Source: Bacteroidales bacterium (GTDB lineage: Bacteria; Bacteroidota; Bacteroidia; Bacteroidales; JAOZQN01). From it: a stretch of 44,140 nucleotides of DNA. Made by a program: the position numbers and the translations under genes. Under the pieces are notes generated by a model that made no database searches, was not told the DNA's origin, and saw only the letters and a program-made list of their open reading frames with translations. Where the stretch lies: assembly GCA_029932195.1 (NCBI GenBank), contig JAOZQN010000001.1, positions 10,595 through 54,734 of the forward strand, read 5' to 3'. Below, in pieces: positions 32,082 to 40,929 of this stretch (within the stretch, counting starts at the first letter, position 1; the number at the start of each line of letters is the position of its first letter).

Positions 32082-34742
32082 TTGAAAAATAAAATGACCG
32101 ACGAACAAATTTTAAAGAAATTAGAAAAACAATTAAATATTAAATTTGAAAAAGTTAATAAGATAAATCTTTTTGATAAAAAACCATGTTTTGAAATTAA
32201 TAATGGTAATATTACAGGTCTTCTTATCAGAAATGTAATTATTGAAGATTTAAGTTTGATAAGTAAATTGGTTAATTTAGAAGAACTTTATTTGTCAGAT
32301 AATCAAATAAAAAACATTTCAGATTTAAAAATTTTAAAAAATATTTCAGAACTTGATTTGTCAAATAATCAAATAAAAGATATTTCTATTTTACAAAAAT
32401 TGGAAAAAATTACATTACTTGATTTGTCAAATAATCAAATAAAAGATATTTCTTTTTTAGAAAATTTAAAAAAGATCGAAGTTCTTTTTTTATCAGATAA
32501 TCAAATAAAAGATATTTCGGTTTTGCAAAATTTGAAAAATCTTATGGTATTTTATTTGTCAGATAATCAAATAAAAAACATTTCAGATTTAAAAATTTTA
32601 AAAAATATTTCAGAACTTGATTTGTCAAATAATCAAATAAAAGATATTTCTTTTTTACAAAATTTAAAAAACATTAAACTTCTTGATTTATATAGTAATC
32701 AAATAAAAGATATATCAGTATTAAAAAATTTATTAAAAAAAGAAAATTCTTTTGATAAAGATTTTTTTGATTTTAATTTTAATTTAAAAAACAATCCCTT
32801 AAAAACGCCTCCTAAAGAACTTGCTGAACTTGGCAGAGATGCTATAAACGAATATTTTGAACATATAGAACTTGGTTACACCGTTTTGAAAGAGGCAAAA
32901 TTAATAATAATTGGCGAAGCTGGTGCTGGCAAAACTACTTTTGCCAAAAAACTTATAAACGCTAATGCCAAAATGCCAGAACAAAACGAAACTACACTCG
33001 GCATAGATGTTTATAATTGGCAATTTGAAACAAATTTGAATAATACAGAAAGTCCAAAATTCAATGCTAAATTGTGGGACTTCGGTGGGCAAGATATTTA
33101 TCATGGCACGCATCAGTTCTTTTTTAGTCAAAAATCGCTTTACATTTTAATTTCTGATGCTCGAGACCAAAGAACAGATTTTAATTATTGGCTAAATACG
33201 GTGGAACAATTAACGGGAGAGAATAGTATTCTTCTGGTTTTGTTTAACAAAAGAGAAGGACGAAATTGGAAATTAGAAGATGAATACGGATTAAATAGAC
33301 GTTTTGAAGGAATGATAAAAAAAGTTATTTCAATAGATTTATCAAATATAGATGAAATACCGCATTTGCAACAGCAAATACAAAAAGAAATAACAAATTT
33401 GCCACAAATAGATTATCGCTTACCAACAACTTGGGTAAATATTCGCAAAGAACTTAGCAAGCTGACAGACAGATATATTAGCTACGAAAAATTTAGAGAT
33501 ATTTGTAATCAAAATAATATAACAAATCCCAAAGTTATAGAAATTATTAGCAAATTATTTACAAATATAGGCGTTTTTACTCATTTTATAGAAGAAGAAA
33601 CAAATTTGCAAGATATAATATTTCTTGATTCTAATTGGCTTACAAAAACAGTTTATTCATTGTTAGACAATCAGATAGTAATAGAAAATAAAGGAAAAAT
33701 TACACGCACAGAAGTAAATCAAATATTAAAAACAGAAGAATTATATTTTGATGTAGATAAATTTATAGAACTATTAAAAAAATTTAGTTTAATATATAAA
33801 ATAAATGGTAGTCAAAATTATATTGTTCCATACCATTTGAAAGCCGGGCAGCCTTACAAAAAATGGAAATATATAGATGACAAAAATGTTTATATTTTTC
33901 GTTATTTATTTGATAATTATATGCCAAAAGGAATTATGGTAAAACTTATTGTTGCTTTGCATCAATATATTTACGACCACGAACTTGTGTGGGCAAGAGG
34001 TGTAAATATCTCTAATTCAGTGAATAAACCCGATACTTTTGCGGAAATTATAGAAACTTATGGACGAGAAAATCGTTTTGATATAAGAATTTATGGTAAA
34101 AATCAAAAAGACCTTTTGCAAATAATAATTTATCATTTCGATAAAATATTAAAACCATTCACAAAACTAACTCACGAAAAAGAAGTGCCATGCAATTGTG
34201 AGACTTGCATTACAAGTGATAATCCACATTTTTTTAAATATAAGTCTTTGTTAAAACGAAAAGAAAAAGGAAAAACTACAATTGAATGTGATAAAAGTTT
34301 TGAAGATACTAATATAAAAGAATTGCTTGAAGGAATTGATTTTTCGGAACTGCGAAGTTTATTAATAAATAAAAAATTTGAGGAATTTAAACAACAAATA
34401 TCTCAACGCTTTTCCGATATTTCGTATCAAATACATAAAAAGACTGTTTCGGAAAGTTTTTTTCATAGCAATTTTCATACTATTTTAGCAGAGAATGGTT
34501 TAAAACCAATTTCAGAAGAAAGCACAAACGACGGCAGAATAGATTTACACCTTTCTATTGATAAAACAAAATATTTGTTTGAACTAAAATTAAAAGAAAG
34601 CAAAGATGACGGTATGAAACAAATTCATGAAAAAAAATATTATAACAAATTTTTGGGACAGTTCGATAAAATAATCTTAATAGCTATTAGTTTTAGCACA
34701 AAAACACGAAATATAGATAAAATAGAATATGAAATTTTATAA
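32082..34742 (+). CDS. Roco-family protein: LRR - Roc GTPase - COR - C-terminal PD-(D/E)XK nuclease
   Basis: About 8 LRRs of 22 aa ('LxxLDLSNNQIKDISFLQNLKN'); P-loop 'LIIIGEAGAGKTTFAKKL', 'LWDFGGQDIYHGTHQFFF', 'LLVLFNKREGR'; C-terminal 'ESFFHSNFHTILAENGLKPISEESTNDGRIDLHLSIDKTKYLFELKLKESK' (D..ExK). Confidence 0.9.
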   Translation: MKNKMTDEQILKKLEKQLNIKFEKVNKINLFDKKPCFEINNGNITGLLIRNVIIEDLSLISKLVNLEELYLSDNQIKNISDLKILKNISELDLSNNQIKDISILQKLEKITLLDLSNNQIKDISFLENLKKIEVLFLSDNQIKDISVLQNLKNLMVFYLSDNQIKNISDLKILKNISELDLSNNQIKDISFLQNLKNIKLLDLYSNQIKDISVLKNLLKKENSFDKDFFDFNFNLKNNPLKTPPKELAELGRDAINEYFEHIELGYTVLKEAKLIIIGEAGAGKTTFAKKLINANAKMPEQNETTLGIDVYNWQFETNLNNTESPKFNAKLWDFGGQDIYHGTHQFFFSQKSLYILISDARDQRTDFNYWLNTVEQLTGENSILLVLFNKREGRNWKLEDEYGLNRRFEGMIKKVISIDLSNIDEIPHLQQQIQKEITNLPQIDYRLPTTWVNIRKELSKLTDRYISYEKFRDICNQNNITNPKVIEIISKLFTNIGVFTHFIEEETNLQDIIFLDSNWLTKTVYSLLDNQIVIENKGKITRTEVNQILKTEELYFDVDKFIELLKKFSLIYKINGSQNYIVPYHLKAGQPYKKWKYIDDKNVYIFRYLFDNYMPKGIMVKLIVALHQYIYDHELVWARGVNISNSVNKPDTFAEIIETYGRENRFDIRIYGKNQKDLLQIIIYHFDKILKPFTKLTHEKEVPCNCETCITSDNPHFFKYKSLLKRKEKGKTTIECDKSFEDTNIKELLEGIDFSELRSLLINKKFEEFKQQISQRFSDISYQIHKKTVSESFFHSNFHTILAENGLKPISEESTNDGRIDLHLSIDKTKYLFELKLKESKDDGMKQIHEKKYYNKFLGQFDKIILIAISFSTKTRNIDKIEYEIL
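32287..32651 (+). repeat. Pair of exact 101-bp direct repeats (32287-32387 and 32551-32651) inside the LRR region
   Basis: TTTATTTGTCAGATAATCAAATAAAAAACATTTCAG...AATAAAAGATATTTCT occurs twice, 264 nt apart (4 x 66 nt = 4 LRRs). Confidence 0.92.
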
Positions 34743-37141: not shown

Positions 37142-39709
37142 ATGGAATTTATATCAGGAGCAAAATATATTAGAGCAGATTTTCATTTACACACAAAATC
37201 AGATACTGAATTTAATTATAAAAGTGAAGAAAATGATTTTGTAAAAAACTATGTTCAAAAATTAATAGAGGAAAATATTCAACTTGCGGTTATTACAAAT
37301 CACAATAAATTTGATTTAAAACAATACGATGGCTTAAGAAAAAAAGCAAAGAAAAAAGGCATTTTTCTTTTACCTGGAATTGAATTAAATATAAACGAAG
37401 GAAAAACAGGTTTACATACACTGATTGTGTTTGACAATAAAAAGTGGTTAGTTGGCAACGAGGATTTTATAAATGATTTTATTACAAAAACAGCTCCAAC
37501 AGATAATCATGATTTTAAATATAAAAACGGACTTTCTCAACATAGTTTAATTCAAACTATTGAACTTCTAAATACATTTAAAAAAAAATATTTTATTGTA
37601 TTAGCACATGTTTCGTCTGATAATGGATTATTAAAAGAAGTGAATGGGAAAAAAATTGAACAGCTTGGAAAAGATCCTATTTTCAGGAAAAATGTTCTTG
37701 GATTTCAGGCAGTTAAAAATGGAGATTTTGATAATTTAAAACTATGGCTTAAAAAAAAGCTTCCTGCTTTTGTTGAAGGTTCTGACCCTAAAAGTATTGA
37801 ACAAATAGGAAAAGGAAAGAAATGCTACCTAAAATTAAGCGATTTGAATTTTGATGCTGTTAAATTTGCTTTGCAATATCACGAGAGTAGAGTTGTCCGA
37901 GAAATTCCAAAACAACAAAACGCTTATATTAAATCGGTTGAGTATGTTGGAGGCAAACTTGATGGTAAAATAATCCACCTAAGTCCATCAATGAATAATA
38001 TTATTGGGATACGAGGAAGTGGAAAATCATCAATTTTGGAAACTATACGGTATGCTTTGAATATTAACTTAGATAAGAAAATTACTGCAGACGAGAATTA
38101 TAAAAATTCAATTATAAATAAAACTCTTGGAGGAGGTGGCAAAATTTTACTTAAAATACAAAATAATAATAATATTTATAATATTGAAAAAGGAACAACT
38201 GGAATAGCAAGATGCATTGAAAAACCCGACTTAAATATAAAATCATTAATAAAAAGTTTTTATTTTGGACAAAAAGACTTATCAAGAATAGGTGAGACAA
38301 AACAAAGTAATAAAGAATTTATATATCGTATAATTGGGAAAATTGATAATGATCAAAAACTAAAATCTGATGAGATTTCAAATAAAATAAGAGCGTTATT
38401 ATCAAAAATTATTCAAATTGAAAAAAAGATAGAAATAATACCAGATATAAAAACTCAAATTGCTGATTTAAAACAAGATATTGAAAATATAGAAAAATTT
38501 GGACTTAAAGAAAAATTAGAAAAAGAAATAAATTTTAGTCAAGATATAAATAAAATAAAATATATAAAAAAAGAAATTAAAATAACAATTAATAATTTTG
38601 AAGAGTTCTTAGATAATCAAAATGAAGATTATAATTATTTAAAAGCCTATAAATCAAAAGAAAATAAACCTTTTTTTAACGAAATTTTCACAATACTTGA
38701 TAATATTTCTATTATTCAAAATTCATTTAAAGAAAAAAAGTTAGAAATAGAAAATAAATTTTCAAAAGTAGAAAGTATAGAAAATAAATTATTGGAATTA
38801 ATCGAAAAACTAAACGAGGTATTTGCAAAAAGTCAAAGAGAAAGTAGTATTTCTGCAGAAGATATTAAAAATTATCAAGAATTTCAGACTAAATTGTCTA
38901 ATAAAAAACTTCTCCTAACAGAATTGGAAAAACTAATTCCTAAAAAAAAGTTATTAAGAAAAGAATTAAAGACAAAACTAAACGAGGTTAAAGAAAGCTG
39001 GCAAGAAGAATTTAATATTATAAAATCAAAAATAGATACAGTAAATTCAAAACAAAAAAAACTAAAAATAATTATTAAATTTAAACAAAATAAAAGAGCA
39101 ATAGAAGATTTTATTTTTAATTTTTCACATAATATAAGGAGAGAAAATATAAAAATGTTGATAAAAAACAATAATGATTTAATTGATTTATTTGAAAAAT
39201 TTGAAAATAAATCTGATTTAAAAATCAATCAAATTGATGATATAAAAAATCAATTTTATAAAAACTTACCTAATTTCCTTACTTTCCGAGTTCCAGATAC
39301 TTTTGAAATAGAATACAATAGAAAACCTTTAAAAAATCATTCTCTTGGGCAACGAGCATCTGCATTAATTGTTTTTTTATTTTCGTTACGTAACAACGAT
39401 TTAATTTTAATTGACCAACCAGAAGATGACTTAGACAGTCAAACTGTTTATAATGAAGTAATTACATTAATTAAAAACATGAAAAGCTCAACACAATTTA
39501 TTTTTGCGACACACAACCCTAATATTCCTGTATTGGGCGATTGTGAGCAAGTTTTAGCTTGCGATTATGACAATAAAAACGAAAAAATTAATATTAATTC
39601 AGGTGGTATTGATAAAAAAATAATACAACAAAAAATTATAAATATCATGGAAGGTGGTGAACAAGCTTTTGATGAACGAAAAAATAAATACACACAATGG
39701 AATCATTAG
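37142..39709 (+). CDS. PHP-domain phosphoesterase fused to SMC/ABC-type ATPase (TrlF/Ppl-like)
   Basis: PHP: 'ADFHLHTKSD', 'AVITNHN', 'LLPGIELN', 'VLAHVS', 'FVEGSDPKS'. ATPase: Walker A 'GIRGSGKSSILETIRYAL', long coiled coil, signature 'HSLGQRASALIVFL', Walker B 'DLILIDQPEDDLD', H-loop 'FIFATHNPNIPVLGD'. Confidence 0.9.
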   Translation: MEFISGAKYIRADFHLHTKSDTEFNYKSEENDFVKNYVQKLIEENIQLAVITNHNKFDLKQYDGLRKKAKKKGIFLLPGIELNINEGKTGLHTLIVFDNKKWLVGNEDFINDFITKTAPTDNHDFKYKNGLSQHSLIQTIELLNTFKKKYFIVLAHVSSDNGLLKEVNGKKIEQLGKDPIFRKNVLGFQAVKNGDFDNLKLWLKKKLPAFVEGSDPKSIEQIGKGKKCYLKLSDLNFDAVKFALQYHESRVVREIPKQQNAYIKSVEYVGGKLDGKIIHLSPSMNNIIGIRGSGKSSILETIRYALNINLDKKITADENYKNSIINKTLGGGGKILLKIQNNNNIYNIEKGTTGIARCIEKPDLNIKSLIKSFYFGQKDLSRIGETKQSNKEFIYRIIGKIDNDQKLKSDEISNKIRALLSKIIQIEKKIEIIPDIKTQIADLKQDIENIEKFGLKEKLEKEINFSQDINKIKYIKKEIKITINNFEEFLDNQNEDYNYLKAYKSKENKPFFNEIFTILDNISIIQNSFKEKKLEIENKFSKVESIENKLLELIEKLNEVFAKSQRESSISAEDIKNYQEFQTKLSNKKLLLTELEKLIPKKKLLRKELKTKLNEVKESWQEEFNIIKSKIDTVNSKQKKLKIIIKFKQNKRAIEDFIFNFSHNIRRENIKMLIKNNNDLIDLFEKFENKSDLKINQIDDIKNQFYKNLPNFLTFRVPDTFEIEYNRKPLKNHSLGQRASALIVFLFSLRNNDLILIDQPEDDLDSQTVYNEVITLIKNMKSSTQFIFATHNPNIPVLGDCEQVLACDYDNKNEKININSGGIDKKIIQQKIINIMEGGEQAFDERKNKYTQWNH

Positions 39710-40929
39710 AATTATTAGAAATAATACAAAAAGGTGAAAATAGTTATGTTCAATTTAAAAGAAGAGTAAAAGATGCTCATTCTATTTCTCAAGAAATGTC
39801 GGCATTTGCAAATTACAAAGGAGGAACAATTATTATTGGAGTGGAGGATAAAACAGGAGAATTAAATGGTTTGACTTTTGCCGAAATAAATGAAAATAAT
39901 AAAACTCTGTCAAATGCGGCAAGTGATAATGTAAAACCAAGTTTATTTATTCATACAGAACAAGTTACAATAAATAATCATACACTTATTGTTGCAAAAA
40001 TACCAGAAGGAATAAATAAACCTTACAAAGACAAAAAAGGAGCTATTTGGTTAAAAAATGGCTCAGACAAAAGACGAGTTACTTCTAATGAGGAACTTGC
40101 AAGATTATTACAAGACAGTAAAAATATTTATGCCGATGAGCAAATAATTATAAATTCTTCTATAAATGATATAGACTATCATAATGTAAAATATTTTATT
40201 TTACAATCTAACCGAAATGATTTTGAAGATATTATAAATAAAATTGAAACTGAAATAACTCCATACAGTTTAAAAAAACACGAACTTGACAATTTTTTAG
40301 AACGAATAAAATTTAATCAACCAATTGTAAAATTGCTTAATAATTTACGAATTTTAGCAAATAATGAATTTACTTTAGCCGGTTTATTATTATTTTCGGA
40401 TAAAACACAATACTATCGTCCTATGTTTACCATAGATTGTGTTACTTTTCCTGAAAATACAACATCTGTAAATACATATTCCGATACAGAAAATCTCACT
40501 GGAAATTATTATGATATTTTTGAAGCAACAATGAATTTTGTAAAAAGAAACCTCAAAAAAATCCCTTCAAATAAAGGTTTTAATAGTAATGCAAAAACTG
40601 AAATTCCCCTTGAAGTATTTGAAGAACTTATTATTAATGCCCTTATTCATCGAAATTATTTTATCAATTCAACAATTAAAATTTTCATATTTCCAAATAG
40701 AATAGAAATAATAAGTCCAGGAGTTTTGCCAAATTCTTTAACTATAGAAAATATTTTAAGTGGCATTGCAATACAAAGAAATCCTAATTTACATTCATTA
40801 GCAAAATATATACTACCATACAAAGGATATGGAAGTGGTATTAAAAGAGCTATAAATTTATATCCCGAGATTGAATTTGAAAATAATTTATCAAAAGAAC
40901 AATTTGTTGCAACAATAAAGCGAAGATAA
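39697..40929 (+). CDS. AlbA_2/Schlafen-like DNA/RNA-binding protein with HATPase_c_4-type C-terminus
   Basis: 'GENSYVQFKRRVKDAHSISQEMSAFANYKGGTIIIGVEDKTGELNGLTF'; 'IPEGINKPYKDKKGAIWLKNGSDKRRVTSNEELARLLQ'; 'PLEVFEELIINALIHRNYFINSTIKIFIFPNRIEIISPGVLPN'. Overlaps the upstream ORF by 13 nt. Confidence 0.9.
   Translation: MESLELLEIIQKGENSYVQFKRRVKDAHSISQEMSAFANYKGGTIIIGVEDKTGELNGLTFAEINENNKTLSNAASDNVKPSLFIHTEQVTINNHTLIVAKIPEGINKPYKDKKGAIWLKNGSDKRRVTSNEELARLLQDSKNIYADEQIIINSSINDIDYHNVKYFILQSNRNDFEDIINKIETEITPYSLKKHELDNFLERIKFNQPIVKLLNNLRILANNEFTLAGLLLFSDKTQYYRPMFTIDCVTFPENTTSVNTYSDTENLTGNYYDIFEATMNFVKRNLKKIPSNKGFNSNAKTEIPLEVFEELIINALIHRNYFINSTIKIFIFPNRIEIISPGVLPNSLTIENILSGIAIQRNPNLHSLAKYILPYKGYGSGIKRAINLYPEIEFENNLSKEQFVATIKRR

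Follow-up and report, generated by a model that had tools for sequence, protein, structure and literature searches.

The window analysed here, a 44,140-nucleotide stretch of a Bacteroidales genome (contig JAOZQN010000001.1, positions 10,595 to 54,734 of the forward strand), carries on its plus strand a single uninterrupted open reading frame of 886 codons (positions 32082–34742). The start codon is probably the ATG at 32094 rather than the TTG at 32082, because homologues begin with MTD(L/E)(Q/E)I at the former; residue numbers throughout count from the TTG. From the ATG to position 34742, the frame encodes leucine-rich repeats (LRRs), a Roc domain, the COR-A and COR-B subdomains and a C-terminal PDDEXK_9 (DUF1703) domain, in this order. 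The features of this gene, and a second Roco gene of the window, are the following.

32094–34742, plus strand: LRR-Roc-COR-PDDEXK_9 gene, 882 residues counted from the ATG
32208–32786, plus strand: leucine-rich repeats, residues 43–235, predicted sensor and fastest-evolving part (Pfam LRR_4/LRR_8; low coverage between relatives)
32898–33251, plus strand: Roc (Ras-like), residues 273–390 (Pfam 8.2e-25)
32913–32939, plus strand: P-loop (G1) GEAGAGKTT, residues 278–286, with Lys284 (GxxxxGKT invariant across aligned Rocos)
33075–33095, plus strand: switch II (G3) WDFGGQD, residues 332–338 (identical in 38 of 38 aligned sequences)
33246–33257, plus strand: degenerate G4, NKRE in place of NKxD, residues 389–392
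33423–33833, plus strand: COR-A, residues 448–584 (Pfam 6.5e-31)
33885–34334, plus strand: COR-B, residues 602–751, with conserved Cys positions (Pfam 4.5e-32; the dimerisation subdomain in CtRoco)
34335–34436, plus strand: helical linker between COR-B and nuclease, residues 752–785 (AF2 secondary structure)
34437–34733, plus strand: PD-(D/E)XK nuclease domain, PDDEXK_9/DUF1703, residues about 786–884 (Pfam; AF2 and structure searches)
34452–34454, plus strand: nuclease motif I, Glu791
34542–34544, plus strand: nuclease motif II, Asp821 (GRID)
34581–34589, plus strand: nuclease motif III, Glu834-Leu-Lys836 (ExK)
34620–34622, plus strand: nuclease motif IV, Gln847 (motif definition in PMC1913061)
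18480–20678, minus strand: second Roco gene, LRR-Roc-COR-EAD1 (Pfam EAD1 8.7e-11; Roc-COR tree)

All Pfam domain matches lie far above chance (1.9e-25 for LRR_4) and bear out the earlier note, which had read LRRs, Roc, COR and a C-terminal nuclease in one protein by eye. The full-length AlphaFold model is of high quality (pLDDT 89.7, pTM 0.79), and both the LRR-Roc-COR-nuclease architecture and the PD-(D/E)XK fold of its last domain are near certain. Chance or misassembly as the source of the fusion was rejected: the frame is open throughout, and seven genes of the same clade (clade A, below) carry the fusion in several assemblies.

The Roc-COR core matches the Roco protein of C. tepidum (CtRoco) both by sequence (1.5e-115 over residues 66–750) and by fold (Foldseek 8.9e-50). 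A P-loop and a DxGGQ switch II motif in Roc, followed by COR-A and COR-B, identify the protein as a member of the Roco family. It is not a STAND-type NTPase: the confident domains are Roc, COR-A and COR-B, and the match to a NACHT P-loop is weak (0.006, under the Pfam cut-off). G1, G2 and G3 of Roc are intact, so that the "complete Roc P-loop and switch" claimed at first holds for the P-loop, switch I and switch II but not for G4, which reads NKRE instead of NKxD. The guanine-specifying Asp is gone from all six aligned clade A proteins (variants NKRE, NKKE, NRKQ, NKKH and NKKY), whereas clade B keeps NKID. G4 also deviates in many other aligned bacterial Rocos. An NKxD G4 is typical of G proteins but is no defining feature of Roco membership. 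Because the Asp is lost in the clade of the window gene, GTP as the trigger of the switch is an assumption.

The C-terminal domain matches PDDEXK_9 (PF08011) at residues 790–879 with 58.8 bits (6e-16), above the curated cut-off of 25.5. DUF1703/PDDEXK_9 was placed in the PD-(D/E)XK superfamily in 2007, with E as motif I, D as motif II, ExK as motif III and Q as motif IV (PMC1913061). Modelled alone (nine sequences), the domain reaches a pLDDT of 85.3 and shows the α/β order of DUF1703: E791 opens the first helix, D821 lies at the second strand, the ExK motif is on the third, and Q847 belongs to the helix that follows, such that motifs I–IV sit on an α-β-β-β-α core. A sequence search of the PDB with the domain found no relative. 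The Foldseek search placed HincII and Hjc in its top rows (E about 1e-3, probability up to 1.00), and the rows of VIA-align were mostly PD-(D/E)XK-fold nucleases, with Z-scores up to 8.0, each single one being modest. The matches of the two programs are mainly HincII, EcoRV, Hjc, the Cas4-like SSO0001, Wolbachia CinB and the bunyavirus cap-snatching endonuclease. Given how consistent this list is, and with the motifs present, the fold is hardly in doubt. All four motifs (E791, D821, E834-x-K836 and Q847) are unchanged in an alignment of ten out of ten Roco-PDDEXK_9 proteins from two Roc-COR lineages (Bacteroidota and Planctomycetes), and the predicted nuclease is likely to be catalytically competent. 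The D...ExK motif that the earlier note had quoted corresponds to D821, E834 and K836, and its assignment to DUF1703/PDDEXK_9 was correct. That note would have given up its proposal had the PD-(D/E)XK fold been absent or these residues not conserved; the AF2 model and the structure searches show the fold, and the residues are invariant.

The Roco-nuclease gene is preceded by a PorV-like gene and followed by a DUF3352 gene, a gene for a TrlF-family PHP-ATPase and an AlbA_2/Schlafen gene, the latter two being its sole defence-like neighbours. At 37142–40929 of the window, the TrlF-family PHP-ATPase gene (NCBIfam, 495 bits) overlaps the AlbA_2/Schlafen gene, whose product has a RecG-C-like domain; these two might constitute a separate defence pair. 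PADLOC matched none of its families here and has no model for the Roco-nuclease protein. At related loci, a test for a defence island was negative: the closely examined neighbours are housekeeping or unassigned genes with no defence genes in common, and the PADLOC matches among 58 neighbours are single proteins only. The paralogous Roco-PDDEXK_9 gene of the source genome comes after an apparent alaS. No mobility genes were found beside the Roco-nuclease gene, which, if it acts at all, does so on its own. Its surroundings are not syntenic across the order: in 13 genomes, no Roco gene adjoins the orthologues of the DUF3352 gene that lies downstream here. In a genome of the same genus (G463), orthologues of both flanking genes (73 and 78% identical) adjoin different genes and no Roco gene, and the contigs end there. 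This indicates a variable site, on the assumption that the two contigs join. The fragments beside the flanking orthologues in G463 (L203:3-80, minus strand, and L206:2-148, plus strand) received no identification from Pfam; we take them to resemble an Rpn-type PD-(D/E)XK transposase.

The ten Roco-PDDEXK_9 proteins are those that turned up in 84,980 scanned species genomes, with the paralogue from the same genome added. They split into two clades. Clade A comprises the window gene, its paralogue on contig C96 and five genes from Bacteroidales/Bacteroidota assemblies (L068–L072), with nuclease domains 55–73% identical. Clade B, in which Roc is about 28–29% identical, comprises proteins of Candidatus Anammoxibacter (Planctomycetes; L078), Bacteroidetes GWF2_29_10 (L100) and the cultured isolate Chitinophaga barathri (L103). 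The two clades stand apart in a tree built from 99 Roc-COR regions, whose supported branches force two changes. The nuclease-only tree, made from a short alignment, is compatible with one origin of the nuclease; the split comes only from the Roc-COR tree. The fusion is patchy, occurring in 7 of 295 genomes of the order, some of which have two or three copies. In L068 (JAOZVK010000406.1, 405–5189), two tandem copies 99% identical to each other fill a 5.4-kb contig and could be a true duplication or an assembly artefact. Searched with Roc-COR plus nuclease, viral contigs yielded no more than four matches, all at the level of Roc (26–29%), and with the nuclease they yielded none; phage records contained no Roco-nuclease fusion, just short nuclease-level matches; and a fused copy was absent from the plasmid matches looked at. 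The best full-coverage plasmid match, a Nostoc Roco protein, was rejected as a fusion: it has no detectable PDDEXK_9 domain, and its C-terminus looks like a CHAT protease. Its gene (L216:1949-6556) lies on the 38-kb plasmid pNsp_j with an integrase, PIN toxins and an EAD1 protein nearby.

A survey of Roco C-termini, which the earlier note had proposed as a check, found PDDEXK_9 in 10 of 77 relatives. The other Pfam matches at this position are TIR_2 (22) and TIR (15, overlapping), EAD11 (5), SEFIR (2), ThsB-TIR (2), AlbA_2 (1) and an AbiEii-type AAA domain (1). The position after COR is thus a plug-in site for effector modules. Since in relatives it holds known immune effectors or adaptors (TIR, SEFIR, CHAT and EADs), the idea of an NLR-like layout of sensor, switch and effector, with Roc-COR in the place of STAND, stands. 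Judged by motif, about ten more relatives end in an unnamed region with GE(L/V)DI...(I/V)xEA, which looks nuclease-like but has neither the ExK lysine nor a Pfam match; it is possibly PD-(D/E)XK-like. It occurs in L001, L075, L076, L079, L082, L085, L090, L092, L095, L107 and L146, in Bacteroidales, Aminicenantes and Acidobacteriota. A further variation is a 1429-residue Roco-EAD11 protein fused with an AbiEii/SMC-type ATPase (L142:237-4523).

The source genome encodes eight Roc-COR proteins: two with PDDEXK_9, four with EAD1, one with an unnamed nuclease-like C-terminus and one with C-terminal transmembrane segments, which were assigned by eye. The EAD1-Roco of the window and another of the same genome adjoin the nuclease clade in the Roc-COR tree; the effector module has therefore been exchanged. 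The Roco chassis works with an effector in cis in the nuclease clade and presumably in trans in the neighbouring EAD1-Rocos, and the EAD1 domain of the second Roco of the window is expected to be an adaptor that recruits an EAD1 effector in trans. One EAD1-Roco gene is located directly upstream of an EAD1-CHAT protease gene (L211:1495-2778, contig C736 of the source genome). The two likely form a cis-encoded effector pair, and their adjacency agrees with the published principle by which EADs pair adaptors with effectors. The source genome also has 29 PDDEXK_9 matches, mostly in frames of about 510–615 residues, presumably AAA-ATPase_like-PDDEXK_9 expansions.

Selection on the parts of the protein was compared in one informative pair, the C96 paralogue and L068, synonymous sites being saturated in most other pairs. 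Here dN/dS is 0.07 for Roc, 0.08 for COR-A, 0.23 for COR-B, 0.16 for the nuclease and 0.43 for the LRRs, half of whose repeats are unalignable. In this pair the nuclease is under purifying selection and the LRRs change fastest. LRRs evolve fast in general. A changing sensor combined with a constrained switch and effector is the pattern that an immune-type receptor would show.

Taken together, these data favour, with a probability of roughly 0.6, an NLR-like system of one gene, in which a Roco (LRRK2-type) chassis supplies the switch that gates a nuclease and which has an immune-type role. The nuclease activity, its coupling to the switch, the defence role and the identity of nucleotide and ligand are inferences. 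The variable LRRs would sense a ligand, probably of invader origin, and Roc-COR would be the nucleotide-driven switch, held, by analogy with CtRoco, as a compact COR-B dimer. Binding of a nucleoside triphosphate would open this dimer or make it monomeric, a step taken from published work on CtRoco, which monomerises under GTP drive (PMC11052575). The opening would free or rearrange the C-terminal PD-(D/E)XK domain, which would then cut nucleic acid, with the result that the cell is killed or arrested or the invader DNA destroyed. This suggests a built-in alarm that destroys nucleic acid upon sensing an invader. A more specific version is improbable in all its particulars: a phage product would be recognised by hypervariable LRRs, and Roc-COR, having lost guanine specificity, would use ATP or another NTP to license the nuclease.

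The same domains could make a restriction-type defence protein, whose switch-released nuclease degrades invader DNA selectively while the host survives. A PD-(D/E)XK fold is characteristic of restriction enzymes and resolvases, and a nuclease fused in cis could be positioned on its target by the bound sensor. However, there is neither a DNA-modification partner nor a DNA-binding domain besides the nuclease, and the TIR, CHAT or EADs of the sister proteins suggest cell-directed killing or signalling, which makes this reading unlikely. The lack of a defence island and the housekeeping genes that adjoin these stand-alone genes, as well as the abundance of PDDEXK_9 in the source genome (29 copies), would fit a housekeeping or stress regulator, in which the Roco part is a scaffold and the nuclease acts on DNA or RNA during repair, development or the response to stress. 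Such a regulator is rather improbable given the patchy presence of the gene (7 of 295 genomes), the expansion of paralogues with differing C-termini, the fast-changing LRRs and the different genes that adjoin the flanking orthologues in the same-genus genome.

Two further readings deny the nuclease a role coupled to the switch or an activity. It might be a selfish or hitch-hiking module, similar to the AAA-ATPase-PDDEXK_9 genes, that was captured by a Roco gene without coupled function; the 29 PDDEXK_9 matches of the genome, the majority within frames of about 510–615 residues, and the multi-copy, assembly-breaking nature of these genes point that way. Yet all seven clade A Rocos keep the fusion, the constraint on the nuclease is similar to that on COR-B, a second lineage has the same architecture and no mobility genes were found adjoining, so this capture is very improbable. 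Equally hard to credit is a pseudo-nuclease that just binds nucleic acid or serves as a dimer module, as invariance of the four catalytic motif positions and the Gln in ten of ten proteins from two phyla is unexpected for a dead domain.

Kaur et al. (2021, eLife, PMC8195603) predicted that LRR-AP-GTPase-COR proteins serve prokaryotes as counter-invader systems; the class has at least 24 C-terminal domains, and a genome can encode as many as 11 paralogues. The Roco-nuclease resembles this class in its variable N-terminal LRRs, its Roc and COR domains and a C-terminal effector or EAD that is exchanged among differing paralogues of one bacterium. The general idea that Roc-COR replaces STAND in immune-type proteins has already been published in that paper. 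The C-terminal domains named there are TIR, DRHyd, caspase, trypsin, FGS, GT4 and EADs, without PDDEXK_9 or REase, and measured against that text Roco-PDDEXK_9 is a new effector variant within a predicted class. CtRoco (PDB ids: 6hlu, 8r4b) has the same core fold, but where the window protein has a defined nuclease, CtRoco has some 150 terminal residues of unknown structure, and its G4 is of the NKID type. The AAA-ATPase_like-PDDEXK_9 proteins (Knizewski et al. 2007, PMC1913061) share the C-terminal family and motifs I–IV, but the partner there is a degenerate AAA+ ATPase. NLR/STAND receptors (bacterial Avs and bNACHT, and eukaryotic ones) likewise combine a sensor, an NTPase switch and an effector in one chain; the Roco-nuclease, whose switch belongs to the Ras superfamily, is no member of that family. 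LRRK1 and the Parkinson's protein LRRK2 share the LRR-Roc-COR core, but the Roco-nuclease has no kinase and no WD40 domain, its output domain being a nuclease.

To our knowledge, no function is known for bacterial Roco proteins, and no experimental paper on their role in defence was found in the open-access journal literature searched. Structural studies describe bacterial Rocos as bare LRR-Roc-COR proteins (PMC6337361, PMC11052575). With a nuclease attached, the Roco family gains an assayable output, and a single gene suffices to put the predicted immune role to the test. The fusion also serves as a simple model of the way in which Roc-COR, which forms the core of LRRK2, gates an effector joined to it. 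How immune-type proteins swap effectors is illustrated by the exchange within one genome and by the two places that the nuclease fusion occupies in the Roc-COR tree. If true, an NTP-switched NLR of the Ras type would be a receptor of the Roco family whose catalytic output can be measured directly.
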